Part shown: positions 2,521 through 24,229 of the stretch, in pieces
Layout of the letters: the number at the start of each line of letters is the position of its first letter
Numbering within the stretch: the first letter of the stretch is position 1
From: Saccoglossus kowalevskii
Lineage: Eukaryota > Hemichordata > Enteropneusta > Harrimaniidae
Assembly: GCF_000003605.2 (NCBI RefSeq)
Contig: NW_003132350.1
Location: 207,001-231,853 of the forward strand
Direction: 5' to 3'
DNA length: 24,853 bases
Program-made: the position numbers and the translations under genes
The notes under the pieces: model-generated
What the model was told of the DNA's origin: nothing
Seen by the model: the letters and a program-made list of their open reading frames with translations, nothing else
Database searches by the model: none

Positions 2521-3540
2521 TCGAATGTCACATGTTTTTTGTTGGTTGAGAAAAGGCTTTAAGACTTTGTATAGGGATGTACCCAAATACACTTGAATTA
2601 CAAATAGTCATATACCGTGTTGTTGATTAGTCAGAGGCTTCAGTTTCTATATACTGTGCCCAGTGCATTTTACTACTTGAAAGTTCAATTTGCGTAACGT
2701 GGTGGTTGTGGCTCCTTGAACGTTTTGTATTATTCTCAGTGTTTCAACACTGAAAGTACTGCAATGACAATGAATGCGAGAATGTGAAATCAGGAAAGGA
2801 CAGTGTATGTGGTCACTGATTTTGCCAATAATCTAAGCATTATAAATAAATATTATACGAAAGTAAGTTAACAACCCATGTTTACCAGCGGGTTTCGGCC
2901 TCATGGACTTGCAAGGCAAAGTGAGTAAATATCACATCAGTCCGCGATCGAGAATATTCGATTGAGTTGGATGGCACCATTTCAATAACTATTACATTTA
3001 CGCTATTCAACTGCAGCGCAGTCTTCACATAAATAATGCGACATTGTAAATTTCAGATATTTAATTATAAATGTACAGGTTGGTCCTAGTAATGTTAATG
3101 ATATTTTCAATTACATTTCTTTAGAACCGCAGAACTGTGCATTAGTATACTTAGTAGCTGGAAATAAACATTAAAAGTTACTCTGCTCTGTGTAAGTCTA
3201 AGAGCAACTAATTATCGAGTACTATATCCATAGCTAAACAATTCTCTATAATGATTACTCAAAAGTGCACATCAGGCCGAAGACGAGTCACATGATAACA
3301 ATTCAATGGTAATATCATGTATATTTTATGATAACAGCAATTTTGAAACTCACTTGACTTGTGAAATTATTTTATAAACAAATGCTGAAAATAATATGTT
3401 CGCATTATGACATATGCATATCATTAACAGGCGTCTCAGCACAAATATTACAACCGATGTGTTTCATTTATTATCGTGGTAGCTGCTATACTATGTAGTG
3501 AACGTACTCATGCTAGTTTTTGGAAATGTGTTGTTAACAT

Positions 3541-3592
3541 TCGCCACGTGAAGAATGGAACAGAGCATGCGTGGATTAATTTATGTTTGTGG
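3541..3592 (+). promoter_or_regulatory. Conserved upstream block with CACGTG E-box (gene A)
   Basis: CACGTGAAGAATG (E-box at 3545-3550) and GAGCATGCGTGGAT with AATTTATGTTTGTGGG following are nearly identical in the right arm (E-box at 23110-23115), while flanking upstream sequence has diverged much more. CACGTG lies 233 and 216 nt before the two ATGs. This looks like a retained cis-regulatory element, possibly bHLH-bound. Confidence 0.4.
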
Positions 3593-3693
3593 GCGGTTAT
3601 CTCCTAAACCAATTGAAACTTTACCAAATGGAGGGATTAGACGGAAAAAAGGGCACATCAGCCAAACCAATCTTTATAATCAAACGATCTGAT

Positions 3694-3777
3694 CATATCT
3701 ATCAGTAGAACGATCACTTCACTCAAGGCTCTGCATACTATTTCACGTTGAAGAGTATTACACCGACGACGGCAACG
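3694..3777 (+). promoter_or_regulatory. Gene A core promoter and 5' UTR (conserved in both arms)
   Basis: CATATCTATCAGTAGAAC, then the block CGATCACTTCACTCAAGGCT, is almost unchanged in the inverted copy, where the first part reads CATATATATC (22961-22970), a better TATA-like box. The spacing suggests initiation near CACTTCACTCAAGG, leaving a short 5' UTR before the ATG. This copy has about 15 extra bases in the leader (near 3733-3747). Inference from conservation, not mapped. Confidence 0.45.
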
Positions 3778-3837
3778 ATGTTGCATTTACTAGTCATCCT
3801 TTCGGTTACCAGTTTTACACTAGCAGCCTCACAAACG
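3778..3837 (+). CDS. Gene A exon 1: signal peptide
   Basis: Sixty coding bases from ATG to a GTGAGT donor, ending in phase 0. The product begins MLHLLVILSV and ends TLAASQT: a hydrophobic h-region followed by small residues suited to signal-peptidase cleavage (A-A-S). Start choice: this ATG is conserved in the inverted copy at 22899 and has A at -3. Where the other copy has a further in-frame ATG 30 nt upstream, this copy has TTG. The donor and the first ~200 bases of the intron are also conserved between copies. Confidence 0.85.
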
Positions 3838-6800
3838 GTGAGTTGACTTACTTACTAGTATATTTATAGGCGTCTCGCATATATTTATGTTGACACGTTA
3901 GCGGTTTTCATAGCGGAATAAAGTGTATAACATACACAAGGAGTTATGTGCTGATGCTGTTAACTGGTGTTCTAGTTATAATGGTTCTGAAACATTACCA
4001 TGTTACCATATACAAAAAGAGAACCAAAATCAGATTCAAGTGAACAATCGGCAGAGACGGAGTTGTCTCCCACTCAGTTAATTTACCATAATAGTGCTTC
4101 CTGGTCAAATTGCAAGTACTGATTTTAAAAATCGATGAAATATTTCTGCTCAGTTCAGCTCAGGCTTTTTTCTAGTGTTCAAAACATTGCACTTTAAGAG
4201 GGGATTCAGAAAAGTGAGAGTTTGAATACTGGTTTCAAATTTTGTGTTTTGTCTAAAGTCAGCCTCATCCTGGCCCTCCACTACTTAATAGTATAATATT
4301 GTATCGAACTGACTCGTTATACACGCATCCTATCTTATTTATTTTTTGCATAAAACAATGTTTTAATGGTCCGCCAGGAAAATATCTCATTTTTTCTACA
4401 AAATTAAGAAAAAAAGAAAAGATCTATTACTATCTGTTGCCTGTTTCCCGCAAATTACGTACTTAATGTTTATGACAACATACATACGTCATCGTTTAAT
4501 TTGTGTATACGAAGTTTAAATTAATGCATTGTAGTTTGTAGTCATTGTTAATATAAAGGAGACGTGTGCGTTACATGATGAATGACATGCAGTTAATTTT
4601 ATACGCTGGCATACCCATATGATGTTGTAATGTAACTGAATCCTAACCTGATCATATATACAAGTAGCACCTGGTGCACACGTGGGCGTTGTTTATTCAT
4701 CGCCGAGTCCACAAATTGTACGATCCAAATATAAGCATAAGATGCACAAGACTCGGACGTGGCCTTGTTATTTAAGCAATTTACAGAGAAAGACATTAAG
4801 GCATACTAGTAACCTGGATCTGTGCTCATGAGCAACTCTGCTGTAACTCTTGCTAATTTGTATATGTTTCTTAGCCATGCATGTCCATATCTGCCAGCAC
4901 GTCATCAGATTGTCAAACGATTTTACCTGGCAGATTGTATCTGTATCTGATTGCTGTTGCCATTCATTGCCATTTATTTCTAATAGCTCATAATTGTAAG
5001 TGAGTGGCATATCAAGATAGCCTAGTTTGTAGAAGAAATACATGGTTCTCTGGAATGAGACACAGTTGATTTGCCACCCACTCATAAACAACAGATATAA
5101 TGATTGGCATTTACCATTATCGAAATGCAACATTTACCTTGTTTACCCGACAGCATTTTACGGGTGTCCAACATCTAGAGCCAGCAAAAACCGCTATCAG
5201 CTAAAGCCCAATCGGCTTCGACTTTGGGTTGGGCTCAGATAGAACTGGACCGACGGACTAAAATTGGGCTAAAATCACCTGCTGCAAATCACGCTCCATT
5301 CAAACCATGGGATTTCAGTAGTCGACTTCGTTTTAGATGGACGATTGCAGTCTCTCGATCGTGAAAATAAGTGTTGTTCGTCGGTTGGTCTGTTTCAAGC
5401 AAAAGAAGAGACTTGTTGATGAACTGACTTTGAACTGAAACTGCGTGTCTCAATCGGTCTCAATGGCGTCTCCATTAGAGGATCGATGGAGACAACATAT
5501 GTGTAACTAATAACTAATTTCACGCATTTATGTGATGTGATGTCTTTTTGTGTGAAGCGAATATGCTTAATAACCAGTTGATAAGCCTACCGCAAAGAGC
5601 CAATCTAGTTGTTGGTAGGTTTTACAAACAACTGCTGATATTAATCTGAATGCTTCCATGCTGACGACTGACGACAGATTAATTGAACAATCCTTGTTCA
5701 GCATTTGTCATTGCTGTATTTGTCATTTATACAAACTTTTGGTATAGATATTTCCAAGTAATCCTATATTACAACAGTTATGTTGTGAACTTGAGGAAAC
5801 GAAACACGGGCGAAATGATACAATCCACAGCCTCAGTGGTTCCACAGAGGGCGGTATCATTCATCTTCATGCCATTGTGTTCAAAAGAGCGGGAATACGT
5901 TATTGGGTTAAGTAGGGTTTCCATAGCTATTTATCAATTGTGCAGCATTTAGGCTTGAGAAACTGTTTTTATATAAATCATGTAAATAAAATACGAGTAA
6001 TATAGCGTATCCTGATTCTTTTCTAGTGTACAATAACTGTTATCGTATTCAGTATTAGTGTATGCGAGGCACCACATTTTGGTGAAAATCACGGCCCGGG
6101 GGTCTAAATTCATCCTCTGAAATAATAAACCATCAAGAAGGTCAGAGAAACAAGAGGTGATATATTTAGGTAATGGTATAGCCTTAGCCAATTGTCTCTT
6201 TCCAGCACTTTCCAGTTATTGCCAGTCAATTCTTGTCTTTCAAATAAAAAATACTTAGCAAAAATGTATCGCATTCTCTGTATTAGACATCCATCGTTTA
6301 CAATAAATTACATTAGTCTGATAATAATATGGATATAATCCATGGACAAAATCCCTTATCCAGCTGATACATATGTTTTGACGTCGCTTGTTTTTGTTGT
6401 ACACCTTGTTGGCAGTATTTAAGCCATTATTTGGCTTTTTAATTGGTGGTAGTATTGCAAGTGATGTTTTATTTTTATTATTAAAACAAATGAGCAAGCT
6501 GACGCTGTATATTATCGAAATGAAACAGCAAGCGGCAAACATTTTCCCAGTTATATTGGAAGGTACAATGTAATAATAAGTGAAACAGTTTTACTTGAAT
6601 AATTTATTAATATTTATTACTGATACTCATTAGCTATATTTTACTGCTCAGAAAGTTGGTGGATAACTATGTGTTCCGGCAGTAAACTTGGTGGGCTCGG
6701 TTGAAATGTAATTTCAAACACTGTTTGTGTACAATGATATTTGTTTTGCGATAGTTTCCTTTTGGTTCAAACCGAGCATAATATTCCCTAGACAGAATTC

Positions 6801-9800
6801 CATAAACGTCTAGCTGTAGTTCTTATACTGTAAGTAAAATGGTACGTCGATTGCATTGATTAATTGCCGACGAATCTTCGGTTGCATGTTGGGTCGGCAA
6901 GGGGTATTTTCGTAAGCTGTAATCAATTGTTTTTATTTTCGTAATAATGTAATTTAAATAAATAAAAGACGTGGGCAATGTATAATATGTAATCGGATAT
7001 TTATTCGTCTGTAATTTGTACAAAGATATTATTGTTTGTAATCGTATAAACATTTTCTGTATTAAATGTCGTAATTCGTACGCAATTTTCAATTTTGATT
7101 CTTAAACACAAATTATGAAAAATATTATATGAATGTAAAATGTTATTAGGCATTTGCTATATCTGTATAGTGTAAAAACCTTTTTTTACTGTAAATGGAA
7201 CTTTCATTTTATTTCCTGTAAAAATGTTAAATGCCGTGTTTATTTCCTGTAACCTGTACCAGCTAACGAACCTTGTCCCATCTTGTAATACTTTCTCAAA
7301 ATACCAATGACATTCGGCAGAAGAAATTTCGCCTACCACCATGTTGGAGATACATTTGCCACGCAAATAAGTTTATTGAGTTATAAAACGACGAGAATAA
7401 AATCGGATGAGTTGTAGAAAATATAGACTCAAATTTAATATTTAAATCAGACACGAAAATGGACAACAACTCGGCTACAGCTGTAATAACAACAATAATC
7501 AATGATCGCGGCACTACATCGCCTGTTTCAGTCGAAACATGTAACCCCTTATAGTGTATAGAGAAAAGGGGTTTTATTTATTCAATTGAGTTTTACATAG
7601 TAGTGCTACTCATTACTTTTACGTAAATAAGAAACTCTTGGAGGGACGATTACAGAACAACTGTGCAAGATATTGTTTCATTCCCTCAGTTGCGTGCTAT
7701 TTATGTTTGCATAGCGATTTTGACTGTCTCTGTGATGTCTGGCGCACCTAACATGCATGCGTACGGGAAATGCCCAGTATATGCAACGTTGGCGTTCAGT
7801 TGGAACACTACCATTTCACATAAAGAGACACATTCTTGCGTATACTTAAACTGTGTATATCATCGACGAAACAATCATATCATTGATTTAAGCTTAATGT
7901 TACAGACATAGATGACTAACTTGAGTGGTAGTTTCGCTGCGCTCCTGTGTATAATAATAATATACGTATACAGGCAGGAAAAACTCACCAGTCTGGAGAG
8001 CATCTTAATGAAAAAAAAACTTCACACCAAATATTAATTTTGTGATATAGTCAAACGGCTGAAATCAAGTGTGATTTAGTGACAGGATGTAAGTAAAGAT
8101 GCTTAACAGTCAATCACAACCAAATATAAGAAACTGTTATGATTAAGTGTATTATTTTAATTATAACGTACCGACGTTTTGTTCCATTTAAAATGAAACG
8201 CGACAAAAACAAATGGTCTAATCAGGAATTAATTATACTCAATCAAGTGATCATTCATTAACTAGTAGCAGGTGTTCGTAGTCATTGTTAATTATTTTAT
8301 ATAACCAGATGTTTTTAGATAAAGTATCCTTTTCAATTATAGAAATGAATACAGAGAAAGAGAGATAGTACGAAACACGCGTTATGGCTAAAATGTTGAA
8401 ATATGACAAGCGCGTCAAATTACAATCGCTGGAAATGATGTGAACAATTCATGAAATTTAGTATTCTTCCGTGCGTCTAAGTTTATTTTCGTTGACAAAA
8501 TAAAACACACTCTTGAATGGACATATCTGAAACGTTATGTTCCCTAGAACTAAAACCCGACAGGGCGGCTCTCTTGCCTAGTATACCACAGACTATAAAA
8601 AAGCGACCCCATCCCACACAATGAGAACTGTTACCAGCATACTATATATAATAAAATAAATCACATCATAGTGACGCAATCTGTATTACTCTTGTCGGCA
8701 ACATTAGCGTTAGAACCTCTGTTTAATAAGTATGCGTCTATGTATGATATGTTTGTTTTATATATTTTCATTTCGTTTCAGAAAGTACTTCAAACAAGGA
8801 GTTACGGTATGTAAATATTTTAACAGAATAATGAATGAATAGATGGATGGGTTCATTAATGAGTGAGTGGGTGAGTGAGTGAGTGAGTGAGTGAGTGAGT
8901 GAGTGAGTGAGTGAGTGAGTATAATACATTGTTTGTTTTTTTCAAATAGATCCATCTATGGTTGCATTCTGGCCTTTGAATGCAGACCATGGCACCGTTG
9001 ATCAAATCGGTTCAAATGACGGCCTCCCAACTGGTGTTACAGTTGATAATACAAAACATGGTGATATTTGTAGTGCATACAGCTTCGCTGGTAATAAAAA
9101 CTCATTCATCGAATTTCCCAACGACGGTGGCTTTGATACACACTATTCAATAACATTACTTGTATACGTTTACCCAACTGGTGCTGCTGGGCCAATATTT
9201 AATTTTAAACGAGATGGATGGGGGAGTCATCTGTGGCAAACCGGTGCAAATCAGGAATTTGTTCGCATGACGCGACGTAGCACCCTTTCATTCACTGAAG
9301 ATCTAAGGGCCGATGTACTCGTCCAGAACGAATGGAATTTTTTGGGAGCAACGTACGACTACAATAGTGGCGAGGAAAAACTATATTTGAAAGGTGTTGT
9401 AGTGAATAGTCGTAATATTGGTTCAATGGAAATTTCAACTAATTATGAAGCTCGTATGGGAGTACATGATACTGATACCCGGTATTATAAGGGTTTGATA
9501 ACATGTATGCAAGTATATAACCGTGCGTTGTCGCCTGACGAAATAATAGAAGCTGAGAAGCTATGTACTAAATGTCCAGCAGGTACGTAAATTCCATCAA
9601 CAACAGGCTACTTACTCACTGTGTGGTAGTGTTCTAATATCTTTGGATAGTATGTAAATTACAAACAGCATAATCAATATAGAAAAAATAAAGTCAAAAA
9701 CATCACATGAGACGAATCCAATATTCTATGTCTGTTTTGTACATTGTAAATTCCACTTGTATTCTGTTACTTTCAAATTAAAAATAGACAGTACAAAAGT

Positions 9801-11209
9801 AGTTTTATTTGTTTCATTAATAAAGTTGTAAGTGGTGATCCTCATTTGACAACCTTTGATGGACGTGCGTATAGTTTCCAAGGTACATGTTGGTATACAC
9901 TGGTGAAGGACTGCTTAAATACTAATCCTGAATTTGAAATCCGTGCTAATTTTGCTCCCCGGGATGATGTTGACGTTCTGAAGACGAGAACTGTTGCTAT
10001 AAATGTAACTGTTGGCGATGAAAGCATTATTGTGGACAGAAGCAACAAAATATCTGTAAGTAAAAAAAATACATCGTGTATATTATTAACAGGGAAGGTT
10101 ATTTGTGTGTTATGACTGCAAAATGTTTGCATCGCAGTGTAAGTTTTGTTTTTAGAACAATCTAAATAAATAATTAGCTATTGGTTTTTAATTATGTTAC
10201 ACTAAAAGACATGTGACCGACAGTACGTGTTTGTGCTAATATTGTATCAATAAAAATACTTGTCAATAAACAATCCACTCTCATATGCAATTGACCTATT
10301 TGTGACAGAACATGCTCTGGGTGATCTGACCATCTAGTTGCGTCCGTAGAAAATATGGACCACTCCATTACTGAATATTAACCACCGAGGTCAATTATAT
10401 CAGGATTAAACTGTCGGGAATGAATATACCTGTATACATTATGTCACGTATTTTGGTTCACTTATGCTTTCTGTACCTTCTGTATTCCAAATGACCCAGT
10501 TATTTATTTGTAATATAACAGTATGTATGTAATAAATTTTTTTTTAATTGTTCTTTAATACAAATTATGTATCATCCAATTTTTAGTGTGCGTGTTTGGT
10601 AAATGTTGACACTGAAGTTGCCGCCCGACTAAAATGTGCAATGTTTAATAGCTGAATCGAGTAACAAACTGAATTGTTCAGCATCTTTGTCTTTATATGT
10701 TTTTACCATAGGGTAATACCAACGATTTAAAGTCCTGGCAAAGAAATATAGATGTAAGCTTCAATAACAATACAGTCATGATATCATTCACGGTGATGGA
10801 TACAACGTTCACTCTGCACTGGAAGGGAAGGAAACACATCTTCACTGCAGACGTTTCAGATATAGCATACCATGGGAAAGTTTGTGGTTTGCTTGGCAAC
10901 GCTGATGGTGATCCTCACAATGATTTTATGATGCCTGATGGCAAAGTGTCTAAAGATGTAAATGAATTTGGAGTGACTTGGAAAGTAGCTGACACGAGGT
11001 AAGACGTGATAAATGTGTGGCTCGCTGTCGACACAGTTGAATTCCTACAACTATGCATGAGGCGTATGCTTTGTCGATTGCTTCAACACAGAGTAAAATA
11101 AATCATACCAAACACATCAGAGCGAGAGCATGGTGCTTTATCACAATATTTAATTTTTATCCCTATTCATGTATTTCAAATTATTTATGTTTTTTTCAGA
11201 TGTGAGTAG
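3778..11209 (+). CDS. Gene A: secreted LamG-like plus VWD domain protein (six coding exons)
   Basis: Predicted spliced gene: 3778..3837, 8782..8806, 8950..9582, 9826..10055, 10712..10998, 11200..11209. The sum is 1245 nt, giving 414 residues plus TAG. Every intron is GT..AG and phases match throughout (0, 1, 1, 0, 2). The order is signal peptide (residues 1 to ~18), short linker, LamG/concanavalin-like jellyroll (~31-235), then one VWD domain (~241-413) opening with GDPHLTTFDG and containing CGLLGNADGDPHNDF. The product should be secreted; no membrane segment follows the signal peptide. LamG folds usually bind glycans or matrix proteins, and VWD domains occur in mucins, vitellogenins, IgGFc-binding proteins and BMPER-like proteins. 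An adhesive, matrix, mucosal or immune role is inference only. The fold calls and exon chain are firm; the terminal 10-nt coding exon is less so. Signal-peptide exon and upstream DNA are duplicated inverted at 22.8-24.7 kb. Confidence 0.85.
3838..8781 (+). other. Gene A intron 1 (4.9 kb)
   Basis: Runs from the GTGAGT donor after the signal-peptide exon to the pyrimidine-rich acceptor before the 25-nt exon. The first ~200 bases match intron 1 of gene B; the rest does not. ORFs on both strands (4768..5133 -, 5683..5952 +, 6255..6542 -, 7157..7366 -) overlap each other or lack recognisable domains; I do not call them. A small palindrome around AGCCCAA...TTGGGTTGGGCT is near 5203-5236. Confidence 0.6.
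8782..8806 (+). CDS. Gene A exon 2: 25-nt microexon
   Basis: The tract TTTCATTTCGTTTCAG precedes it and a GTATGT donor follows. It enters in phase 0 and leaves in phase 1, coding KVLQTRSY plus the first base of an Asp codon completed by exon 3. Without it, exon 1 (phase 0) could not join the LamG exon (which needs phase 1) in frame. That is the main argument that it is real. It is separated from exon 3 by a 143-nt intron holding a GAGT microsatellite. Confidence 0.75.
8861..8920 (+). repeat. (GAGT)n microsatellite in gene A intron 2
   Basis: About 15 GAGT units with one imperfection, ending only 29 nt before the acceptor of the LamG exon. The 29 nt between hold the pyrimidine tract. Each GTGAGT in the array resembles a consensus 5' splice site. 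Confidence 0.9.
8950..9582 (+). CDS. Gene A exon 3: LamG / concanavalin A-like domain
   Basis: One 633-nt exon holds the complete jellyroll domain, with acceptor TTTTTTTCAAATAG and donor CAG|GTACGT, phase 1 in and out. Family landmarks in order: VAFWPLNAD at the start, SFAGNKNSFIEFP, the core strand YSITLLVYVYP, NEWNFLGATYDYNSGEEKLYLKG, and the closing GLITCMQVYNRALSPDEI. This is the usual LamG_3-type pattern (W.f.a.yD...lY.nG, then f.G.i..v.iy.raLs..Ei). It ends with a Cys pair in LCTKCPA that could form a disulfide or hinge before the VWD domain. Phase 1-1 symmetry makes it a classic shufflable module. Confidence 0.92.
9826..10055 (+). CDS. Gene A exon 4: VWD domain, N-terminal half
   Basis: Codes V-SGDPHLTTFDGRAYSF then QGTCWYTLVKDC. 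This is the diagnostic VWD opening (GDPH..TFDG..Y.F.G.C.Y.L..DC), and its Asp residues fit the calcium-binding start of the fold. Acceptor TTTCATTAATAAAG, donor TCT|GTAAGT. It enters in phase 1, so the split codon GTT makes Val, and leaves in phase 0. The reading frame runs open into the intron until about 10115, but the strong donor and the homology break at KIS support the splice. Confidence 0.92.
10712..10998 (+). CDS. Gene A exon 5: VWD domain, C-terminal half
   Basis: Acceptor TTTTTACCATAG, donor GAG|GTAAGA; phase 0 in, phase 2 out. It starts GNTNDLKSW and contains VCGLLGNADGDPHNDFMMPDG followed by NEFGVTWKVADT. This is the second VWD signature (usually CGLCGN.n.d..dDf..pdG). The second Cys of the canonical CGLC is Leu here (residue 377 of the protein). 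The acidic and Asn residues of the calcium loop are retained. Confidence 0.92.
11200..11209 (+). CDS. Gene A terminal coding exon (R-C-E-stop)
   Basis: A strong polypyrimidine acceptor (ATTTATGTTTTTTTCAG) precedes A-TGT-GAG-TAG. Joined to the phase 2 end of exon 5 it gives Arg-Cys-Glu-stop. The Cys right after TWKVADTR fits the Cys that usually closes a VWD domain, so the stop falls at a sensible domain end. Only ten coding bases, so the support is the acceptor strength and phase. The rest of the exon would be 3' UTR. Confidence 0.65.
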
Positions 11210-13072
11210 AAATATCATATATGGCACACATCGATGGATTGCGTGGTTCATTGGAGTGGGTTTGCGATTTGTGATTTTTGATCGAATGAAATATAGGGGT
11301 TATGCGAAATTGAACTATTTTATTAGAAATACTCTTTGTTTTTGATCATTGCAATATTTAGCTGATAATTTCATGGTGATACATACTATGTTAGACATTG
11401 TAAAACAATATTCAATCCAAGAATACAGTGTTGTGCTGTTTCAATTTATAATATAAAAGCAAAAGCACTTATATATTAGACAACGAGCGTGAAGGTATAT
11501 TTTATTCATTTTCAATTTCGGGTGGAATGAAGATAGAATGTATAGTAAAATCATGCTCGTTCGATTATTGCTTTAAATTAAAATGCATAAAAGAAATGTA
11601 ATTTTCTTTTTCAATTTAAATCATTTTACTTACAGATATAACACTATTGTAAGTCACTTAAATAATATTAAAATGTAAAATCATTGAATGAAGACAGGAG
11701 ACACAAACCTAATATTATCATAGCAAAATACAAACTGTAACATTGTGCACAGTGAGTCGGTAAGTGGGATGCTTCTTTGAAGGATACTTTGGCAGTTCAG
11801 AGTAGAAAATGAATAAATTATTACCGTATTACGGAATAGCTAGTTATTCTCGTTTAACGGCCTTGAGTGAGAACGTTTTGTGCCCACGTGAGCACCATCT
11901 GGTCAAGTAATAACCGATACATATCAAATCGAATCAAACAATAAAACCGGAGCACTGTAAACAAAAACATGCGAACACGCAAATGGAAAATGTATGAAAG
12001 TGGTAAAGAAAAGAAAATTTACATGAAAACATAGATGGAGGAAACAAAGGAATTGGTCATGTTATTTGAATGATGGAGAAACCTGAAGTGGTACTAATAA
12101 AGTTTTCTAAACATACTAGAAGATCTCTATGTGAAAATTATGCCGGGATCAAATTTTAACCGCAACTATTTAACCAAGGCAGATTTATGTAGTGGAGTGT
12201 TACAATAAACACTGAATAGCTTTGATATGGTATCATTCCGGAAAAACGAAATGTTATTCTTACACAATCGGTGTTTCGTACAACTTCCCATTCTTTCAAA
12301 CATAGCCATGCTATTTTCAAATGCTTTTGACCAAACAGGCTTTAACACTTGGACAAACATTGGCACGGCATATGTACCTCGAATATATAATGTTTCAGAA
12401 GGTATATGATTGTTATAGTAGCATCCTTAGTAACCCTTGGGAATACATGAGTGGTATTCCTTGATATATGAATAAACAAAAGACTAGTAAATGAATCACT
12501 CTAATATCTTACTTATATTAATAAATAATCAAACACTATATAACAGAAATACAAGAAAAGAATTTCAGTTCAAAGGTAAAACCTTTGGGCTATGCCTTGA
12601 TTATATTAGCCAATAAGCGGCTTATTCATAAGAATTTCAGTTTTTCGTAATCGGCGGTGTCGATCTGTGGTAAGGGGTAGTAACATTTAGTATCGCTCAT
12701 TGTGCATAAGCATTAAGAATAATTAAGTTGTTGATATTTCTCTAACATACAACACGGGGGATACACATTATATTATTTTGTATGATATCTCAACAAGATT
12801 TTGTGTCTTTTAAATACATATTATTAATTGTATGAATATCAAGGTGAATGTAGGTAAATGTAAACTTAGCCGGTATACCAACACACCATTCTTAGAGACA
12901 CAATATAAATGGTGGCCTGAAATAAAAGGGCATTCTACTCTCTTTACAAAGTCTCTAGATTCAGGAATGTTGGCCAGTGATGATATCTGGATTTGGTAAC
13001 CTTTGTTCCCAATGAAGTGGCGTAGCCGACCCCCAAGAGATTAATATTTCATACTACAACTGTCCGACTTTC
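11210..13072. other. Non-coding region 3' of gene A
   Basis: Probable 3' UTR up to about 11.8 kb, then AT-rich intergenic DNA. A frame at 12299..12402 ends at a possible donor (GAAG|GTATAT) with text such as FNTWTNIGTAYVPRIYNVSE, but cannot be joined in phase to gene A, and I do not recognise it. Confidence 0.5.
11812..11817 (+). terminator. Candidate poly(A) signal for gene A
   Basis: AATAAA about 600 nt after the predicted stop. The sequence between is AT-rich with no ORF worth calling. Other near-matches exist in the region, so the true cleavage site is unknown. Confidence 0.3.
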
Positions 13073-14541: not shown

Positions 14542-14760
14542 TTATATAATGAAAATTGCATGCAGTGACTTGTGTAAATATTGTTGATCAACTAAAATAT
14601 CACCCATGCGATTCCCAGAAAGTACTCTCAAAGCCAAGCAATATACCCCAATTTCAAACCAGACAGCGTCACTCATCTCCTCATCCATCATCAATCCAAA
14701 CCCAATAGAGAACAGGCCCGCGACCACAATAACATAGTGTGAGAATCCAAAGGCGATATC
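14542..14760 (-). other. Possible orphan exon with one hydrophobic segment
   Basis: A candidate acceptor TATTTCTTCAG precedes an open frame of 73 codons (14760 down to 14542). It starts DIAFGFSHYVIVVAGLF, a plausible membrane span ending in FGLMM, followed by an acidic DEEMSD and a second hydrophobic stretch (FEIGVYCLALRVL). No family recognised and no clear donor. Could be an isolated exon, a pseudogene piece or chance. Confidence 0.25.
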
Positions 14761-16050
14761 CTGAAGAAATACATTTGAAAGTGTAGATGTTCCTCAGACT
14801 GGTGACAGTATGACAGGTAAATGTAATTAGAAAACACAACAATGAAAGATCATGTTTTTTATTATAGTGAGGGTGAATTGCAACTGTACGTGTATTAGTT
14901 TTGTATAGTAACCGGCGATTACAAGGTCGTCAGGCTCCAAAGGACAAACATTAGTTCATCAGCAAGTTCTACAAGTTCAATAAGCTTTTCAATTCGTGCA
15001 TTACACAAGTTATGCTACGTTCCTGTGAGAATTTGCGAAGTTTTAGAACTTCCTTGGAACTGAGATTATTCACAATGTTTTGCCTCGGTGGAACATTAAA
15101 AAACAACCCCACTTACAGTGCGCCCGCAAGCATTCAAATCTTGAAATGCTTATTGAAATGAGTAGCCATTGGGAACTCGAAAGTAAGGAATGTATCAATT
15201 GTGCGCTATGAACTGACCAATTACTTACATGCGTGCATTTTTATCCTCATTAATCATTCAAAATCACTATTGAAGACGAACGGGAGTTGCAGTTGCTGGC
15301 TGGGGTAGGATCTACAGTGATACATTTCAAATGATAGGAATACATTAGTTAGGTGTGGGCATCAAATTATTGTAAATTTAATCGTTACCGCATTATGTGT
15401 GAGTAAATGCGTCGTTCAACAACGTTATTCGTATCAGAGATTTAAAGTCATTCAGTCCTTCAGTCTGGTTCGGTCTGAGGTGAGGTATTAGTATCAGTCT
15501 CGCATCAGATACACATCTGCCCCTCAACGAACAGTTGACAACACAGCTTTCAACCATTTTGTTTTTTAGTGCTGCGGACACTTTCAGCCCCGGGCTTCTA
15601 CGTAAATTTAGCGTAATACCATTATTCACCCTTAGCAGTCCCTGGTCTATACTGGTCTATATGGATATTCTGAACAGCAGCCCTAATAAGTCTATTACAA
15701 AAGTGTGGCGAAATGGAAGCACTATTAGCCTTTCGAATCAGAGCTAATCAGAGCATGTCACTCGGACGGCTCGGTCATGAGATTGGTAGGGATATACTCC
15801 CTGTTGTGGGGTGTTCTTCAGCCGAGCGAATGCTCAGCTAAAAAAAATCTACAGTAACTCATATGACAAATTACATCAAAGGCAAAAACGAAATAAAGAG
15901 GTTCGTGCCTCTAAAGAGATTGTTCTTGTAGGTCGGAGGGGACATCTGGTTCAATTCATAAATTTGCAAGCCATGCATGACATAGTCCCCGTTATTTATC
16001 AAATTTAAGATATATAATTTTGTTTATAGTAATATAGTTGGAATATAAAC
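14761..16050. other. Region with short unassigned frames
   Basis: Frames at 15393..15629 (-) and 15811..16008 (+) are 65-78 codons. The latter contains a basic stretch (DKLHQRQKRNKEVRASKE). No domain recognised and no splice partners identified; possibly mobile-element remnants. Confidence 0.35.
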
Positions 16051-16760
16051 ATGTCAGAAGTATGGATTCAGAAGATTATGATGATTTTTTAACATTAAAA
16101 TGATTGACATCTTGTATCTGATCGTGAAACGAGTACTGATTGAAATATTTTGCTCTGAAACAGCATTAATTCAAACAAAATGGCCACCAGTCGGCCATTT
16201 TGAATATTTATAAAATGATGTAAAAAGAATATATAAAATTTGAACATAATCAGTCAGAGCATATCACAGTGCATTCATTTAAACAAAACGGCCGCTAGTC
16301 AGCCATTTTAAATCCAATCTGAAAAATAAAATGATGTGCATCCGGAATCCATAATCTTTAATGTATGTACCAAGTTTGAACAACATCCATCCATAAACGC
16401 CAAGATCAAGTTCTGGAATGTCAGAAGTGCTGAATTTTTGATGATTTTTTAGCACAAAATGGCTGCCATTTGGCCATTTTGAATCAGACAGTCAAACCAA
16501 TATATCTACGTCACGATGTATAAATAAAATTTGATCATAATCAGTCAAAGTATGGCAGATATATGGCACTAGAACTGCATTCATTAAAACAAAATGACCG
16601 TCAGTCGGCCATTTTAAATTGGATCTGAAAAATAAAATGATGTGCATCAAGGTCCTATATTGTCCAGCGTATGTACCAAGTTTGAACAAATTCCATCCAT
16701 AAACGCCAAGATCTAGTTCTGGAATGCCAGAAATGCTTTATTTTTGAAGATTGTTCAAGA
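16048..16760. repeat. 306-bp tandem repeat with AAAATGGCC hairpins
   Basis: GGAATGTCAGAAGTGCT at 16415 recurs as GGAATGCCAGAAATGCT at 16721 (period 306). A weaker first unit begins near 16050 (ATGTCAGAAGTATGG...GATGATTTTTTA). Each unit carries two AAAATGGCC...GGCCATTTT-type stem-loops, four in all (near 16177, 16285, 16456 and 16591). The first is a perfect 9-bp stem with a 7-nt loop (16177-16201). Further shared blocks: AAAATAAAATGATGTGCATC and CATCCATAAACGCCAAGATC. Confidence 0.8.
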
Positions 16761-16964
16761 GAGTCTCAATAACTCGCTCAAAGCACAGTTTTTTGACAGC
16801 TGTTTTTTTCAGCTGCGGTTGCCAGGCAGTGAAAATGTCTGAATGTTCGCTCCTGATAATAGAGGGACTGACGCTGACCAAATCACTTTGAGGAGGCCGA
16901 TAACTAGTAGTAATGACTAGTAACTAGTACCATATCCTGATTGCCCATCACTCTTATTTAAAAC

Positions 16965-17200
16965 CTGATTACAATAAGCCCTATTTCTCTTGGTTACCTG
17001 ACGTCAGCGCAAATTATCACGTGGTCGATCTATATTTATAAAGTAGGGGTTTCCTTTAGCTCGCGAGTGTTGCTCAATTATAAAACTGTTTTGTTTGTAA
17101 GAATTTTATTAACATTTTGTACACTTTTATAAATGGTTACGTGAATGCGTGCAAAATAGAATCAACATGTTCAGTACAGAATATCTGTTTAAAACTCCAT
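16965..17200 (+). promoter_or_regulatory. CRE plus TATA unit, copy 1 of a direct repeat
   Basis: TTGGTTACCTGACGTCAG (TGACGTCA at 16999-17006), then GGTCGATCTATATTTATAAAG (TATA-like at 17031-17043). The leader, with TTTTGTTTGT and ATAGAATCAACATG, also matches copy 2, 601 bp downstream. A CRE about 25-30 bp before a TATA box is a typical promoter layout. The ATG at 17167 opens only a 33-codon frame; no gene recognised downstream. Confidence 0.4.
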
Positions 17201-17559
17201 ACTCCTGTTATATGTTCACCAATATTATCCAGAGGACAGGATGGCTGGATTGTGATTTACTAGCCTGACCAGTATTGTGGGCAACTATGATGGGTATATT
17301 TTTAGAATTGCCCATTGATGGCGCTGTATACATAATAAAGCTGGGATATAACAACAATTATTGACCAGGGATGAAGTGGTTGCTAGGTAAACAGAGAACC
17401 AAACATTTAAAATTGCGCTAACAGGCTCTATTCTCATTTCCAGAGTTCCTTGCGGCTAGAACACGGAAAGTATATACCTAGAAATAGAACTCTGCCTGGG
17501 AGATTGGGTAGAGTCATCTCTAAAAATTGCTCATCACTTTCTTATTCTCGTCTCGTTTC

Positions 17560-17810
17560 GTTTCTTCTATTACATTAAACCCTGTTTCCCTTGGTTACCT
17601 GACGTCAGTGCTTACATTCATAGTCGACCTATATATAAAGCAGAGGTTTAGCTGTCAAATGTTGCACGAATATATTACTATTTTGTTTGTTATTATTTTG
17701 CACAAAAATAGCAAGAAATGTTATAACCATCTCAAGTACAAAGGGGCGGACTAAATAGAAATGGCGTTATTGAAATATTACAGAAACGTTTACGAAAATG
17801 GAACTTGGAA
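17560..17810 (+). promoter_or_regulatory. CRE plus TATA unit, copy 2 of a direct repeat
   Basis: TTGGTTACCTGACGTCAG (TGACGTCA at 17600-17607), AGTCGACCTATATATAAAG (TATA-like at 17630-17640), then the related leader with ACTATTTTGTTTGTTATT and ATAGAAATGG. A 61-codon frame follows (17761..17946) with no recognised domain. Copies 1 and 2 align over roughly 230 bp. A weak third resemblance, CGTCAG...GGTCGGCCATATATTA, is near 18361. Confidence 0.4.
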
Positions 17811-17949
17811 TGTTTTTCAAATTATTTCACTCAGTCGCCTAGGTTACAATATTACATACATGATTTTACAAGCAAAGTACATAGCTTCAATTAACATACG
17901 TCACTCCGGTGATTACCGACTGTCCTATGATTGGTGGGTCTGGTAACTG

Positions 17950-19085
17950 TTGTCAGTATAATACAGATTCGATGGGGCAGTGAAAGCTGGGTTTGGGAGA
18001 GGTTTTCGATTGACTGTTTGGAAGTGACGGCGTGCTTTGTTGATGCTGCACTGAGATATGTACATGTAGCGTCATCCATGTCACAACATTGACAACCAAC
18101 ATCTGAACTTGTACTCTATATATATATGTCACACTTTTGGTATTTAATTTATATTCGTGATTGGGTGCACGTAACGTAGGTGATACATTATACGTGATTG
18201 AACAATGCAAACCAGATGGCGTGTTGCCACTAGTGCATTGATTGTTGGAACCACCTGGGGTTATTGAATTAATTAACGTATTTAAACTTCACACATGCGT
18301 GTGGTCGGGCACTTTTGCCAGAGGTTGTTGGAGAGTACATGCTTGCTGTACGATCGTTGCCGTCAGTTTAGGTCGGCCATATATTATTTTATACAGTTGT
18401 ATTGATTCGTATTAAATATGGAAAGGTAAGGTAAACACAAACTGTTTGTGTCATTTTCTCCAGTACTTTTTATATGATATCAAAGATAATCAGCAAGGTC
18501 GTCTATCCATTAAAAAAGTTAAAATATGCATACACGGACGTAACAATAATTTTTATTTTTATTGTACTTGATAACAGGGGCATTCTGATTGGCTGAACCT
18601 TTCTCTATTTCATCTGTGGCGGCCCAACACCACTTTTATATAAGATACTTCAAAGTAATATGTGAAGGTGGTAAGCTGGAACATTATACGTTGAAAAAAT
18701 GACCAATCGGGTTGAATATAATTATTAGAATGGCGAGAACAAAGAGAATTCGTTTTAGAACATTCTTGTTATGACAACACATTTTTGAAGTAATGTTCTC
18801 AATTTAAGACTTTTACTAAGACTTTTTTGTTGTATGCTTTTTATGTTGATTTTCTCCGACTGGTAAACACAAGCTGGTCGTTCTGATTGTCAGACGACGA
18901 AACACGAAATGAAAACACGTCGTATTGTACTACTACTCAGTTTCGCAGCCAGTCCATGTAGTCGACACGACAATTATGCAAATTTATGCCCATAAATTTA
19001 ATATAATATTTAGCATAGGGTCACTCAAAAACATGCCAATGTATGTGTTCTACATCAATATTAGAGTGAAAAAGCTTGTACAAGA
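17950..19085. other. Region with no gene recognised
   Basis: Short overlapping frames on the minus strand (17891..18210) lack domains. ATGGAAAG|GTAAGG at 18418 could be a donor after a tiny first exon, but nothing supports it. The rest is AT-rich intergenic sequence. Confidence 0.4.
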
Positions 19086-19089
19086 TTTT

Positions 19090-19210
19090 CAACTTTGGTA
19101 GGGCTTTGCATAAATCGAGAAGTTAGTTCGAAATTTGGGTTTCCAACTTTGGTCGGGAACTACATAAGCGGTTAGTTAAGGAGGTTAGTTAATTGGAATG
19201 TTGGGTTGCC
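19090..19210. repeat. Degenerate ~55-65 bp two-copy tandem repeat
   Basis: CAACTTTGGTAGGG...CATAA.CGAGAAGTTAGTT is followed by CAACTTTGGTCGGG...CATAAGCGGTTAGTT, each ending near TTGGGTT. Non-coding. Confidence 0.5.
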
Positions 19211-19636
19211 AAACATCTCCAAATCTTCTCTTTCATAGTTATATTGCCTTTTGTTTTGTTTTGTTTTCATTGCCCTAAGTACGGCGCTTATTAATAGTTT
19301 AACAATTGTTACGAAGACACCCACTGGGTTCAATTGACTGTTTTCAACTCAGAGGCTCACACGCCGGGAGGTTTTACTAAAATAAAATCGGATTAATCGG
19401 TATGTGTGCAAATAACCCGTTGAATAACTATGTTATATCACGAATTTGTCAAGTTTCACTATTTTCCATAATCCATTTCATTAGCTGTTGGTGATTTGTC
19501 TACAAACCCATATTAATTCCAGCTGTGTATGTTATGCAACTCCTTTTTGCAGATGGAAAAGATAAAGTGCATGTGTAATAACGAGCCACTCGATGCATTC
19601 CTTTTTTACTCGACCTTTCCGTTTAGATTTCTACTA

Positions 19637-19721
19637 CTATTCTATTCTATTCTATTCTATTCTATTCTATTCTATTCTATTCTATTCTATTCTATTCTAT
19701 TCTATTCTATTCTATTCTATT
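19637..19721. repeat. (TCTAT)n pentanucleotide microsatellite
   Basis: About 16-17 uninterrupted units. Likely polymorphic in length. Confidence 0.95.
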
Positions 19722-19954
19722 TACACATTATGTACATATATCACTATATGATTATGTAGTTACAAGAGCATGTTATTTTCTACACATGATTAACCATTCC
19801 TGAAAACAAGATCACATCATTTTTGAATAATTCATCAGACTGATGGAATGGCCAAACAGCCCGTTCGTCACCGCGCATGCGTCCACCAAAATATTCCTTG
19901 GATATGTATGTCGAACGCCAGGCATATATTTGAAGATTGGCAAATATGGTGATG

Positions 19955-20006
19955 ATAGACTACTGTGTATATATATATATATATTAGAATATATACACAG
20001 GTCTAT
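19955..20006. repeat. AT-rich inverted repeat (hairpin)
   Basis: ATAGACTACTGTGTATAT at 19955-19972 pairs with ATATACACAGGTCTAT at 19991-20006 across a TA-rich loop. No terminator or element context identified. Confidence 0.6.
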
Positions 20007-20053
20007 ATTTATATCCATAAATATATAAATAAAATGCATTAATATGCCAGAGA

Positions 20054-20059
20054 TTTATT
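20054..20059 (-). terminator. Candidate poly(A) signal for gene B
   Basis: AATAAA on the minus strand (TTTATT on +) about 290 nt past the predicted stop. No independent support. Confidence 0.25.
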
Positions 20060-20345
20060 ACATCATGATAAACGTGGAATGAAAATAAAAACCAAAGAAC
20101 ACCTAGAGTTTAGACAGTGATTTTCCTAATAACAATCTACTGAATAAATATGTTTAAAGATTGCTGCATAGCGTGCAGACTTTGACCTTTGACATGTTCT
20201 GGTCTTAACTCACACTCCCCGAAATAATTCAATCTCGAGATGGTTTTCGCAAAATTCCACTTATAAATTTAGGACTTGGTTAATAAGATGTAGTTTATCA
20301 AAATAGAATGAAATTACAATCTTGGGGGGGTGTTAACTCCGAAAT

Positions 20346-20486
20346 TTATAATAGTATAACACGTGCTTTCCAGATAATTCTCATATAAAACTGGCAATAA
20401 ATCTTACTAAGCCTAAATATAGACTCCATAGTCCAAGAGGTGCATTCACCCCCAATTAATCTGTTTGAGTTAGGATATTCCCTTTC
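20346..20486 (-). CDS. Gene B candidate terminal exon
   Basis: Acceptor ATTTGTATTCTCAG, open in phase 0 to TAA at 20346-20348. Its end, KIYCQFYMRIIWK, resembles the closing strands of C-type lectin domains (C......ICE), but TGG (Trp) stands where TGT or TGC (Cys) is expected. Two further in-frame AG sites inside the exon (after CAAACAG and GGCTTAG) would give shorter versions in the same frame, so the 5' boundary is uncertain. Confidence 0.5.
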   Translation of the reverse strand, partial: EREYPNSNRLIGGECTSWTMESIFRLSKIYCQFYMRIIWKARVILL

Positions 20487-22899
20487 CTGAGAATACAAAT
20501 ATTGAATAGTATCTATTAATGTTCCGCATAATATTAAGCACAACAAGTTCCCCACATACAACTCAACAGCACAGAAGACATACCGGGATGACATTCCTAA
20601 GAAGAAGAAAAATATACGTATGTATAAATGAAATACAACTTACAATTGTATACAGTCTTGTTCTCCATCCCAACTGTTTGGTTGAAAAATCGCGAAGTTA
20701 CTGTATATAATTGTCGAATCATCTCTGGCGTAAGTGAATATATCTTCATGGTTTAAATCGGTAATGCCAATCCAATATGTTTCTAGCGATAGATGGTAAT
20801 TAAGTAAGGCAAATAAAATGACAGAAATATACATTTTATACAAAATCTGTTAATTAATTTATTTATAATCATTTATATTCATTTATAAGTTTAAATTGAT
20901 TTACCTGACGCACACAAACTCTCCATTTTGACATTTTCCGCCGGAGTGTGGGGTTCCGCCAGAAAGCCACCCATCTTTTCACATTCTTGTTTTGCCTCAA
21001 GCCATGTAAATTCACCATATACAATTTCATATGATGGAACTAATTAAAAATGTATATTTATTAATTAAAAGGAGATTAAAGAACATTTACTACTTTTATA
21101 TGTTGTCACATTGGTCTTGCAATGGCATAACATACATTAAATAAGATATAATGAAATATATTAAATATTACGTATTTTCATGTTTGTTGTTTTGTCAACA
21201 TTTCATAAACACCAATACTTATTTCTGTACAGTTCTTGAAAATGTATCAAATGTATACGTATAATAGGTCGGTCTAAATAACCCCTATTCAATTATACAC
21301 AAATCAATTGAATTGTCTCGTGGATTACAATCCAAAATGTATGTACTTGAATTAAATCATCAAACATATCGTGCATATTTCTCATAAATCACGCAAATAA
21401 TATAATGGTTGATTTAATAACTATTAACACAAATATTATATATATTTGTACTTACGTGACTTCTCATTCTGTAAAAAAAAACACAAAAAAATAGGTCAGA
21501 TAAATTTCCGTAGAGAGAATTTCTTTGTATGTTAGTATTGTAACTTATGACGAAAATATACATACCCTATTACAAAATTATAATTTTATCGGAGTCGAAC
21601 CTTTGCTAATCACACTAACTAACGCTTGTGCGTTTATATGGTTGGGCGGAAGGAAAGCCGCGTTCGTTCTATTCCGTTTTGAGCCGAACGAATCAGCTTC
21701 TCCAAATGCTTGGGACAGAGGCGAGAGGTTGGAGACCAGATCTCGCCCCTCAATATAAAATTACGTGCCACCTCCTCTGTGGGATCAAGTTCGGAGACAA
21801 CACCTCCTAGGTAATGATGTCATCCGATGACCTTAGAAATTCTTGTAATATTTTGGCAAGACAAAGACGAACAACACTTATGTTCGCGATGGGGGTACTG
21901 AATTCGATCATTTACGGTTTCTGCACATTTATCGATATCGACTCATGAGATACTACGGTTTGAACTCTGAATCGAGATATGCCAATACCACGCCTGGCAT
22001 TTGATGGATTGGACAGAAATATGTGGTGTATGGCAACAGTGGTGGATCCAGCAAAATGTATTGGGGGCAGGCTTCGCTTAACATTACGGAGCTAGACTTG
22101 CAAGTCTAATACGGAGCGAAAATCGCAGAGAAGCTATGCGTACTCCAGATGATATGAATCGTCATGCGTTTGGGGGGCCATGCCCCCCCTGGATCCGCCA
22201 CTGTATGGCAACAACAATTGCCGTGGTACATATACAATCTGCCTGGAAAAATCGTTCGGCAATCTAATGACATGCTGGTAGCTATTGACATCCATCTTGA
22301 CGACAGAATGGAACATACACAACAGCTGAAATTACTCTCTAGAGAACGCCGGAGCTCAGGTCCAAGTTACTAGTATTACTAATAGCCAATTTCCAGTCTT
22401 TATAGCATCTCATGTATTTATTTTAATCGTACAATTTGCAGAGTTGACGATAAACAACAAAACCCACATGTTCACTAGATGCTAATACATATTCATGTGA
22501 ATAGATTAGGATTCAGTTACAAAAGCCAATAACATTAGAACTCCAATACATCATTGCAAACAACTTCGTCTATGCACGATGAACATGTACATGGTATTGG
22601 AGCGCCAGGCTTAGGCTGCTTCAGAGAAAGCCGACTTTGACACAAGTGACTAAAGTTGATCAAAATTCTCCTTTTGTTATACATGGCAATGTTTCGGAAC
22701 TATTTCAACTAGAACCACAGTTAGCACAAAAAGCACATATCACCTTGTAGTACATTTTGCATGACAGTTAGTAACGTAAAATGGAAAGATATGTGAGGAA
22801 CCTACTAAAAATACATTACTAGTAAGTAAGTAAACTTACCCATTGTGACGCTGTTAGTGTAAAACTGATAGCCGCAAGGATGACTAGTAAATGTAACAT
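20346..22899 (-). CDS. Gene B: secreted C-type lectin-like domain protein
   Basis: Predicted exons on the minus strand: 22899..22840, 21468..21456, 21039..20905, 20782..20644, then 20596..20584 and 20486..20346. The sum is 501 nt, 166 residues plus TAA. The first four exons join with phases 0, 1, 1 and have clean GT/AG sites. The order is signal peptide (1 to ~18), short linker, then one C-type lectin-like domain. Landmarks: FTWLEAKQEC (C44), GGFLAEPHTPAEN, YWIGITDL (72-79), a QPN tripeptide (103-105) where sugar-binding CTLDs have EPN or QPD, and EQDCIQL (C113). Sugar recognition is possible but unproven. The last part reads KIYCQFYMRIIWK, resembling a CTLD end, but Trp159 stands where the final Cys is expected. 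The last one or two exons are therefore tentative: a wrong acceptor, a decayed end, or a real variant. Confidence 0.75.
20584..20596 (-). CDS. Gene B candidate 13-nt microexon (exon 5)
   Basis: Acceptor TTCTTCTTCTTAG and donor GTATGT flank GAATGTCATCCCG. It completes the phase 2 codon from exon 4 as Leu, adds NVIP and leaves in phase 0, which fits the next open frame. Skipping it and using a phase 2 acceptor inside exon 6 is also possible. Confidence 0.4.
20644..20782 (-). CDS. Gene B exon 4: C-type lectin domain, WIG and QPN segment
   Basis: Acceptor CTATCGCTAG, donor CAATT|GTAAGTTG; enters in phase 1, leaves in phase 2. Codes YWIGITDLNHED (the WIGL-type core) and FQPNSWDGEQDCIQ. QPN is where the sugar-specificity tripeptide (EPN or QPD) lies, and DC is the conserved third Cys region. 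A usual W-S-D-G segment before QPN is weak here (YARDD). Confidence 0.85.
20905..21039 (-). CDS. Gene B exon 3: C-type lectin domain, N-terminal part
   Basis: A 135-nt exon, acceptor TTTTTAATTAG, donor CAG|GTAAAT, phase 1 in and out. It codes PSYEIVYGEFTWLEAKQECE and then KMGGFLAEPHTPAEN and SLCAS. Matches the canonical opening of a C-type lectin-like domain: the aromatic strand, W..A...C with the first conserved Cys, then GG.La....EN. Confidence 0.88.
21061..21455 (-). other. Gene B intron 2
   Basis: AT-rich spacer between the 13-nt exon and the first C-type lectin exon (the intron proper runs 21455 down to 21040). No coding potential or repeat recognised. Confidence 0.6.
21456..21468 (-). 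CDS. Gene B exon 2: 13-nt microexon
   Basis: On the minus strand a run of T then ACAG precedes AATGAGAAGTCAC, followed by donor GTAAGTAC. It codes N-E-K-S plus one base; with TT from exon 3 it completes a Leu codon. It converts the phase 0 end of exon 1 to the phase 1 entry of exon 3, the same job as gene A exon 2. Very short, so support is splice-site strength plus phase. Confidence 0.7.
21469..22839 (-). other. Gene B intron 1
   Basis: Holds the hAT-type MITE, a GAGGCGAGA...TCTCGCC hairpin near 21718-21750, and, next to exon 1, ~200 bp homologous to the start of gene A intron 1. The plus-strand frame 21525..21758 has no recognised domain. Confidence 0.6.
22037..22203. mobile_element. Non-autonomous hAT-type MITE (167 bp) in gene B intron 1
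   Basis: Terminal inverted repeats CAGTGGTGGATCCAG (22037-22051) and CTGGATCCGCCACTG (22189-22203) differ at one of 15 positions. They are flanked by a perfect 8-bp target duplication TATGGCAA (22029-22036 and 22204-22211). The CAGTGG terminus and 8-bp duplication are hAT hallmarks. The interior is too short for a transposase and includes a GGGGGGCCATGCCCCCC palindrome. The ORFs across it on both strands are not genes. Confidence 0.88.
22840..22899 (-). CDS. Gene B exon 1: signal peptide
   Basis: Sixty coding bases beginning MLHLLVILAA and ending TLTASQW, then donor GTAAGT in phase 0. Same length, phase and layout as gene A exon 1: 52 of 60 bases and 15 of 20 residues identical. An in-frame ATG 30 nt upstream (22929) would add MKSITPKTAT. 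I chose 22899 because that ATG is shared by both copies and has A at -3, while the upstream ATG has T at -3. Confidence 0.85.
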
Positions 22900-22970
22900 C
22901 GTTGCCGTCTTCGGTGTAATACTCTTCATGTAGAGCCTTGAGTGAAGTGATCGTTCTACTGATATATATG
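22900..22970 (-). promoter_or_regulatory. Gene B core promoter and 5' UTR (conserved in both arms)
   Basis: On the minus strand, CATATATATCAGTAGAACG is followed by the same CGATCACTTCACTCAAGGCT block as gene A, then a leader containing the in-frame ATG at 22929. The TATA-like run lies about 65-70 nt before the chosen ATG. Inference from position and conservation. Confidence 0.45.
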
Positions 22971-23072
22971 ATTAGCTCGTTTGATTGTAAAAGCTGTTTT
23001 AGCTGGCATGTTTTCCCCTCCAATTTCTCTATTTGAAAGCGTTTCGATTGGTCCAGGTGAAATCAACCCACA

Positions 23073-23115
23073 AACATAAATTCATCCACGCATGCTCAGT
23101 TTCATTCTTCACGTG
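23073..23115 (-). promoter_or_regulatory. Conserved upstream block with CACGTG E-box (gene B)
   Basis: Mirror of the gene A block: on the minus strand CACGTGAAGAATG, then GAGCATGCGTGGAT and the AATTTATGTTTGTGGG run. Conserved in order and spacing. Confidence 0.4.
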
Positions 23116-24229
23116 ACGAATGTTAACGACACAGTTTCTGGCATTCAGCAAAAACTAGTATGAATACGTTCACTACAAAGTAAACCACCTATCACGCTAA
23201 TAAATGAAACACATCAGTTTTAATATTTGTGCTGAGGGGCCTGCTAATAATATGTATATGCCATAATGCGAACAGATTTCGTTTTCATCATGTATTCATA
23301 ATGAGAGTCGAGATGATTTCTAAATTGTAATTATCATATCGTGTTATTCAACTATGTGCATTGCTTGTTTTAATGTGACTCGTTCGCGGCCTGGTACGCA
23401 CTTTTGTGTAATCAGTATCGAGAATTACAGTACTCACTGAATAGTTGCATCGAGACTTTCAGAGAACCAGCAAATTTACTCTCCGTTCTTGTAGAACTAT
23501 TTTTAATATTTATTTCCGGCGACTAAGTATATTAAATTACCTTGCTGCGCGGGTCTTACAAAATGTAATGAAAAACAAAAATTACAGAAAAGTACCAACC
23601 TGTTCAATTTACTAATATTATAATATTTGTTGATGTATTATTAAGCTGGTGATAATAGAAAGTCACATCATTTACGTGACGACTGCAGAACCAAGTTGAC
23701 TAGTGTATATAATTATCATATTGAAATGGTGTCGCCCCAGTCACTTTCAAATGTTCTTCATGTTCTTTCCCAATTCGCGGGTTAAGTGTATGATGCTCTC
23801 GCTTATTGAGGAAAGCATGATGAAAGCCGCTGGTGAAACATTGGCAGTTAATTTACTAATTTGCTTTAATGTTGTGTATCCAAGTTTTTAAATTTGTAGC
23901 CTGAAATAAATGTGATTTTATAGGCGAAAATATTATCACTAACATCTTGTTTAGATACTCTCGGTCGAGAATATCGACCAAATCACTGCCGTTCTTCAAG
24001 GATTTATCTCTCTGTACCACACACGTGCTTTACATGCACTGAACACAGTATATACAAACTCAACCAACATAGTATAGTGCAGTTGATGGCAGTCTGGTTT
24101 AAGCAGCCATGTGACTATTTTTAATTCAAGTGTATTCGGGTACATATAGAGAACAATTTCTTAAAAGTACCATGGGTTGTCAACTTGTACGGCAATTTGT
24201 GGCAACACTGAAATAGACTTGCTTCAAGT

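Follow-up and report, generated by a model that had tools for sequence, protein, structure and literature searches.

At one locus of the hemichordate Saccoglossus kowalevskii, two predicted genes that converge on each other begin with almost the same signal-peptide exon and continue into unrelated extracellular modules, which raises the question of what was copied here: the 5′ end of a gene, a whole gene or a dispersed repeat. The window, by which we mean the whole stretch of 24,853 nucleotides analysed, carries the first of these genes (gene A) on the plus strand and the second (gene B) on the minus strand, with their signal exons 19 kb apart. We consider it probable that an inverted duplication of the 5′ end of a secreted-protein gene placed the same start in front of both genes. 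The copied unit would comprise the promoter, the leader and the signal-peptide exon, together with ~1.5 kb or more of the first intron, corresponding to the following features.

2862..3777, plus strand: left arm, upstream of gene A and presumed to hold its promoter and 5′ leader; conservation strongest at 3378-3777; 579-bit match to the complement of 22666-23857
3778..3837, plus strand: gene A exon 1, putative signal peptide MLHLLVILSVTSFTLAASQT with a hydrophobic stretch; phase 0 donor ACG/GTGAGT, score 10.0
3838..5391, plus strand: stretch of gene A intron 1 with piecewise homology to intron 1 of gene B, from the arm comparison
22900..23857, minus strand: right arm, upstream region of gene B, from the arm comparison and the identity profile
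22840..22899, minus strand: gene B exon 1, putative signal peptide MLHLLVILAAISFTLTASQW; phase 0 donor TGG/GTAAGT, score 8.9
21859..22839, minus strand: stretch of gene B intron 1 with piecewise homology to intron 1 of gene A, from the arm comparison

Self-comparison of the 24.9-kb window, which the sequence-only reading had proposed, recovers the inverted homology between the arms, aligning 3240-4023 with 23426-22666 at 75% identity over 806 columns. Pairwise comparison likewise bears out the identity of 52 of 60 nucleotides claimed between 3778-3837 and the complement of 22840-22899. Under a looser scoring scheme, the arm comparison gives nine rows in all, the longest unbroken match running from 2862 to 4023 against 23857-22666 (579 bits). 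Within intron 1, 4631-4969 matches 22521-22199 (122 bits), and the innermost row, 5334-5391 against 21914-21859, reaches 42.5 bits, only modestly above the controls. Further upstream, 2558-2613 matches 24165-24109 (49.7 bits), and three places in 24654-24296 match a repeat-like piece at 1808-1984 (71.1, 51.1 and 38.3 bits, the last being marginal). Two of the nine rows (2122-2168, 29.7 bits; 5284-5330, 28.3 bits) are individually no better than the controls, among which the reversed arm gave three matches (best 36.8 bits), the opposite orientation one (29.7 bits) and 100 dinucleotide shuffles a top score of 32.6 bits, against the observed 579. The arm homology is collinear and inverted from 2862 to 5391 and lies far above the shuffles. 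Its claimed extension into intron 1 stands, over about 1.5 kb and in pieces, whereas the extension over more than 1 kb upstream holds in pieces only, the unbroken match stopping at 0.9 kb. As a separate observation, a single copy of a ~116-bp unit, built around a palindromic TGACGTCA core, lies upstream of gene A (1808-1984), and three successive degenerate matches to it lie upstream of gene B (24296-24654).

Conservation is uneven along the arms. Identity amounts to 66-72% in the distal upstream part (2862-3377, 327 of 493 aligned columns) and in the intron 1 stretch 3844-4027 (119 of 166), and rises to 241 of 296 columns in the proximal presumed promoter (3378-3677) and to 82 of 87, plus 13 gap columns, in the 100 nt leading up to the ATG. 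Between the arms, similarity is higher in the leader than in intron 1 (Fisher p 1.3e-5); the proximal promoter exceeds the distal part (p 4e-6) as well as intron 1 (p 0.019), and exon 1 also exceeds intron 1 (p 0.022), while no significant difference separates leader from exon 1 (p 0.14). These p values are descriptive, because the identity bins were set after the profile had been inspected. The longest exact word shared by the arms also lies close to the start.

3700..3732, plus strand, and complement of 22932-22964: 33 identical nucleotides common to both arms, presumed core promoter or leader

The two exon 1 copies share a reading that starts MLHLLVIL... and differ at eight bases in seven codons, of which two are synonymous and five residue-changing (six of the eight base changes). 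With five of seven differing codons altering the residue, the protein sequence of exon 1 appears to be without special constraint. What was kept would chiefly be the DNA around the presumed transcription start, which fits a shared promoter and leader; the identity peak at the start could alternatively have been caused by past gene conversion. The two exon 1 donors differ in their letters, yet each fits the consensus, the donor scores given throughout resting, like the hydropathy values, on a matrix and a scale entered from recall. Both exon 1 copies read as putative signal peptides. Gene B has a further in-frame ATG at 22929, 30 nt upstream of the shared start, which gene A does not have. We infer that the kept block may act as a working promoter from which both genes would be transcribed, spliced as modelled and co-expressed.

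Paired arms of this kind might also arise as an artefact of assembly, from a haplotig or a mis-join. Haplotypes are as a rule far closer to each other than these arms, whose divergence, accompanied by numerous indels, is 28-34% in the intron and distal parts and 19% in the proximal promoter. In addition, a transposon-like insert is present in one arm only.

22037..22203, no strand assigned: transposon-like insert of 167 bp in gene B intron 1, with inverted ends CAGTGG(C/T)GGATCCAG and the 8-bp flanking duplication TTGCCATA

This insert, which we take to be hAT-like, is not seen in the gene A arm and probably postdates the duplication. The divergence of 28-34%, the indels and the one-sided insert together indicate an old duplication; a haplotig was rejected on the arm divergence and the insert, and an assembly artefact of either kind appears highly improbable. 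Judged from the sequence, the arms are an old paralogous duplication in which the leader has been kept best.

Downstream of the shared exon, gene A is predicted to continue through five further exons.

8782..8806, plus strand: gene A micro-exon 2, 25 nt (3n+1), leading from phase 0 to phase 1; alternatively the 3′ part of a rival first exon (8740/8749-8806)
8950..9582, plus strand: gene A exon 3, Laminin_G_3 (concanavalin A-like) domain, Pfam 3.4e-15, or 2.3e-14 within the whole protein
9826..10055, plus strand: gene A exon 4, first half of the VWD domain, Pfam 1e-14; donor score 5.6, the weakest of the model
10712..10998, plus strand: gene A exon 5, second half of the VWD domain, Pfam 7.4e-10
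11200..11209, plus strand: tentative last coding exon of gene A, picked by eye, frame kept

Joined to exon 1, these exons give an open reading of 414 residues closed by TAG, the open frame being partly by construction since the exon bounds were chosen by eye to keep it. Pfam confirms the assignment of LamG plus VWD to one of the genes, the spliced VWD domain matching over its full length (positions 2-156 of 156, 1.5e-27); a Sialidase match at 0.014 is below its Pfam cut-off. All 33 solved sequences that match the gene A protein have their best stretch in the VWD part, the top ones being the Fc fragment of IgG binding protein, von Willebrand factor and mucins. Against IMG/VR, the LamG exon has one distant relative, 32% identical over residues 127-201, which is not informative.

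Gene B is predicted to leave the same kind of first exon (22899-22840) for a different module on the minus strand.

21456..21468, minus strand: gene B micro-exon 2, 13 nt (3n+1), leading from phase 0 to phase 1
20905..21039, minus strand: gene B exon 3, first part of the C-type lectin-like domain, from the Lectin_C match of the joined reading
20644..20782, minus strand: gene B exon 4, second part of the C-type lectin-like domain, from the same match, ending in phase 2

The joined exons give an open reading that matches Pfam Lectin_C at positions 4-83 of 107 (6e-10); among solved chains, surfactant protein D and other lectins come nearest to it. The C-type lectin-like domain claimed for this gene is therefore recognised by Pfam, but it is incomplete as found. 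Pattern and acceptor scans of the minus strand between 20643 and ~11210 failed to reveal the last lectin exon, which is expected to carry the closing cysteines. No rows came from a strict W-N/D pattern, two from a closing-cysteine pattern and three from a looser W-C-C pattern; an acceptor-based scan in the right phase gave seven, none of these rows being convincing by eye. Gene B may accordingly be truncated or decayed, or may end in an unrecognised exon.

Several other features of the window were recorded alongside these models. Direct repeats of ~180 nt, 306 nt apart, lie at 16145-16755, are transposon-like and include short copies of a motif ending in GGCCATTTT; repeat copies of ~130-140 nt with 74% identity occur 600 nt apart at 16968-17107 and 17569-17699; and microsatellites are found at 8860-8920 (TGAG), 13142-13181 (TCCA) and 19637-19721 (CTATT). 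Rfam at gathering thresholds gave no matches.

The downstream coding exons are unrelated, and the extent of the original copy has to be weighed. A whole gene may have been duplicated in inverted orientation, its downstream exons being later swapped or lost in one or both copies, and an ancestor with all three modules is conceivable. The gradual fading of the homology in intron 1, where no sharp edge is seen, leaves the end of the duplication unfixed and would suit such a history. If it were so, remnants of LamG, VWD or lectin sequence might persist near the other gene, but outside exon 1 neither protein matches the other gene better than E 4.1, the rows at and above that value being chance rows. 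Six-frame Pfam scans of 1-9002, 11000-20998 and 20900-24853 (18 translations) contained no remnant of the other gene's modules, their single match, NrfD_2 at E 0.054, being below the cut-off; this is weak evidence where domains are split, as two of the scans also missed the known lectin exons. Duplication of the whole gene is on this evidence unlikely. We infer, as we would for the direction of copying, that the 5′ end was copied and not a whole gene with downstream exons replaced later.

A copied 5′ end must also join its new modules in frame. In both gene models, exons 1, 2 and 3 are in frame and free of stops. Whereas the copied signal exon ends in phase 0, the exons for LamG and lectin start in phase 1; a direct splice would break the frame, and the micro-exons of 25 and 13 nt must bridge it. 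Each gene would thereby splice from the same phase 0 donor, via a 3n+1 micro-exon, to a phase 1 module, which would be LamG_3 plus VWD in gene A and the C-type lectin-like domain in gene B. The micro-exon donors score 7.7 (gene A) and 8.0 (gene B), and the pyrimidine tracts stand at 74% and 84%, respectively. In classic exon shuffling, phase 1 is the usual phase of signal exons and of shuffled extracellular modules. The copied exon departs from this pattern, ending in phase 0 and reaching its phase 1 modules only through the micro-exons. The two micro-exons have no detectable homology to each other (the observed score is equalled or exceeded in 205 of 300 and 86 of 300 shuffles), nor does the remainder of intron 1 in gene A against gene B rise above shuffles (71 of 100 equal or exceed it), and the shared block therefore ends, as far as visible, inside intron 1.

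The micro-exon of gene A can also be read as the end of a longer exon with a start of its own.

8740..8806 (ATG at 8740 or 8749), plus strand: rival first exon of gene A, MYDMFVLYIFISFQKVLQTRSY, in frame, with a hydrophobic start and a phase 1 donor

From either ATG, the reading crosses the putative acceptor at 8781 in frame into exon 2, giving MYDMFVLYIFISFQ-KVLQTRSY-D. Gene A might thus own a first exon, 8740/8749-8806, with its own signal peptide and promoter, the exon at 3778 being an alternative or a relic; this we hold to be possible, if on the doubtful side. Its first exon would then end in phase 1. From the rival ATG the frame agrees with the phase 1 donor at 8806 and stays open into LamG, and the hydrophobicity is 2.59; with comparable starts at 10 of 300 combinations of acceptor-like site and frame in the window (the rival site itself included among the 300), a chance origin is possible but not comfortable. 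However, similar candidates are not rare, 14 being found on the plus strand and nine on the minus strand of the whole window, including one in phase 1 at 4881-4995 in intron 1, and a pyrimidine tract inherently encodes hydrophobic residues. The candidate scan of 3000-8949 returned seven rows: exon 1, two at 4881, of which one is in phase 1 with its hydrophobic stretch late, and four ending at 8806, two of them in the right phase. Exon 1, moreover, retains a strong donor that would otherwise be without a known partner, and gene B has no comparable start, an in-frame stop lying upstream of its exon 2. With a rival start in gene A only, gene A may not need the copied exon, and dependence on the copied leader is firmer for gene B, while completeness of the protein is firmer for gene A. 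As the rival exon could serve as an alternative first exon, it is compatible with a copied 5′ end, and the likelihoods we attach to the explanations do not add up to certainty.

A further explanation sees in the arms two instances of a dispersed repeat that happens to contain or overlap the exon and would have many copies with no gene function. Transposon-like sequences lie nearby, and the far upstream piece is tandemly repeated in one arm, as might be expected of such an element. Nevertheless, self-comparison at E 1e-5 finds no third copy of the arm in the 24.9-kb window, conservation peaks at the leader, and both copies retain an open signal exon and its donor, which together make a dispersed repeat decidedly unlikely. 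The exact leader 30-mer had no match in IMG/VR or in GTDB contigs, as expected for an animal sequence, records of the animal's own genome possibly being left out of these collections.

Wider still is the idea that the promoter and the phase 0 signal exon form a travelling cassette, placed before many different recognition-type modules in the genome and replacing resident leaders, which we regard as a long shot. On such a scheme, the T-rich signal codons of a resident first exon would double as pyrimidine tract and acceptor, a role open to 8749-8781, and a new leader would replace the old one in frame with no need for a new splice site. For the locus itself, a copied regulatory and secretion cassette, as the sequence-only reading had put it, is the best reading of the DNA in view of the arm homology and the identity peak; what tells against it is the phase 0 exon, the rival start of gene A and the lack of a last lectin exon in gene B.

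A duplicated 5′ end in front of unrelated secreted genes is a known route to new genes, and the present pair is well supported but has precedents. A gene family of Schistosoma japonicum shares a similar signal sequence and core promoter (PMC3434034). That family is dispersed, with 27 UniGene entries and retroelement flanks, and no similar domain was found in other organisms (PMC3434034), whereas here one inverted pair is in view and the modules are known extracellular ones. The WFDC, semenogelin and SPINT3-5 genes have a homologous first exon encoding the signal peptide and dissimilar secreted parts, and a Kunitz gene was proposed to be a product of exon shuffling in which a WFDC gene supplied the regulatory sequences (PMC3209443). 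The second exon of mouse Spint5 measures nine nucleotides (PMC3209443) and may be likened to the micro-exons described here. These genes also have a conserved third, untranslated exon and shown epididymal expression (PMC3209443), in contrast to the present genes, which are predicted and have no known shared 3′ exon. The KQY and KHI cassette effectors of the pea aphid combine a conserved signal-peptide region with divergent coding sequences, as here, but belong to multi-gene families in which miniature exons supply the divergent parts (PMC7495047), unlike the large known domains of this single pair. In rodents, the abstract on formyl peptide receptors describes the capture of vomeronasal receptor regulatory sequence by an unrelated gene, which resembles the present pair, although the genes concerned are receptors and the abstract mentions no shared signal exon (PMC7873101).

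If transcripts confirm the models, the locus would provide a clear pair in which a secretion signal and a promoter were copied as a unit, bringing unrelated binding modules under one control. If true, the combination of a phase 0 exon, differing 3n+1 micro-exons and a possible resident signal peptide acting as acceptor would offer a concrete route by which leaders can be swapped in animal genes.
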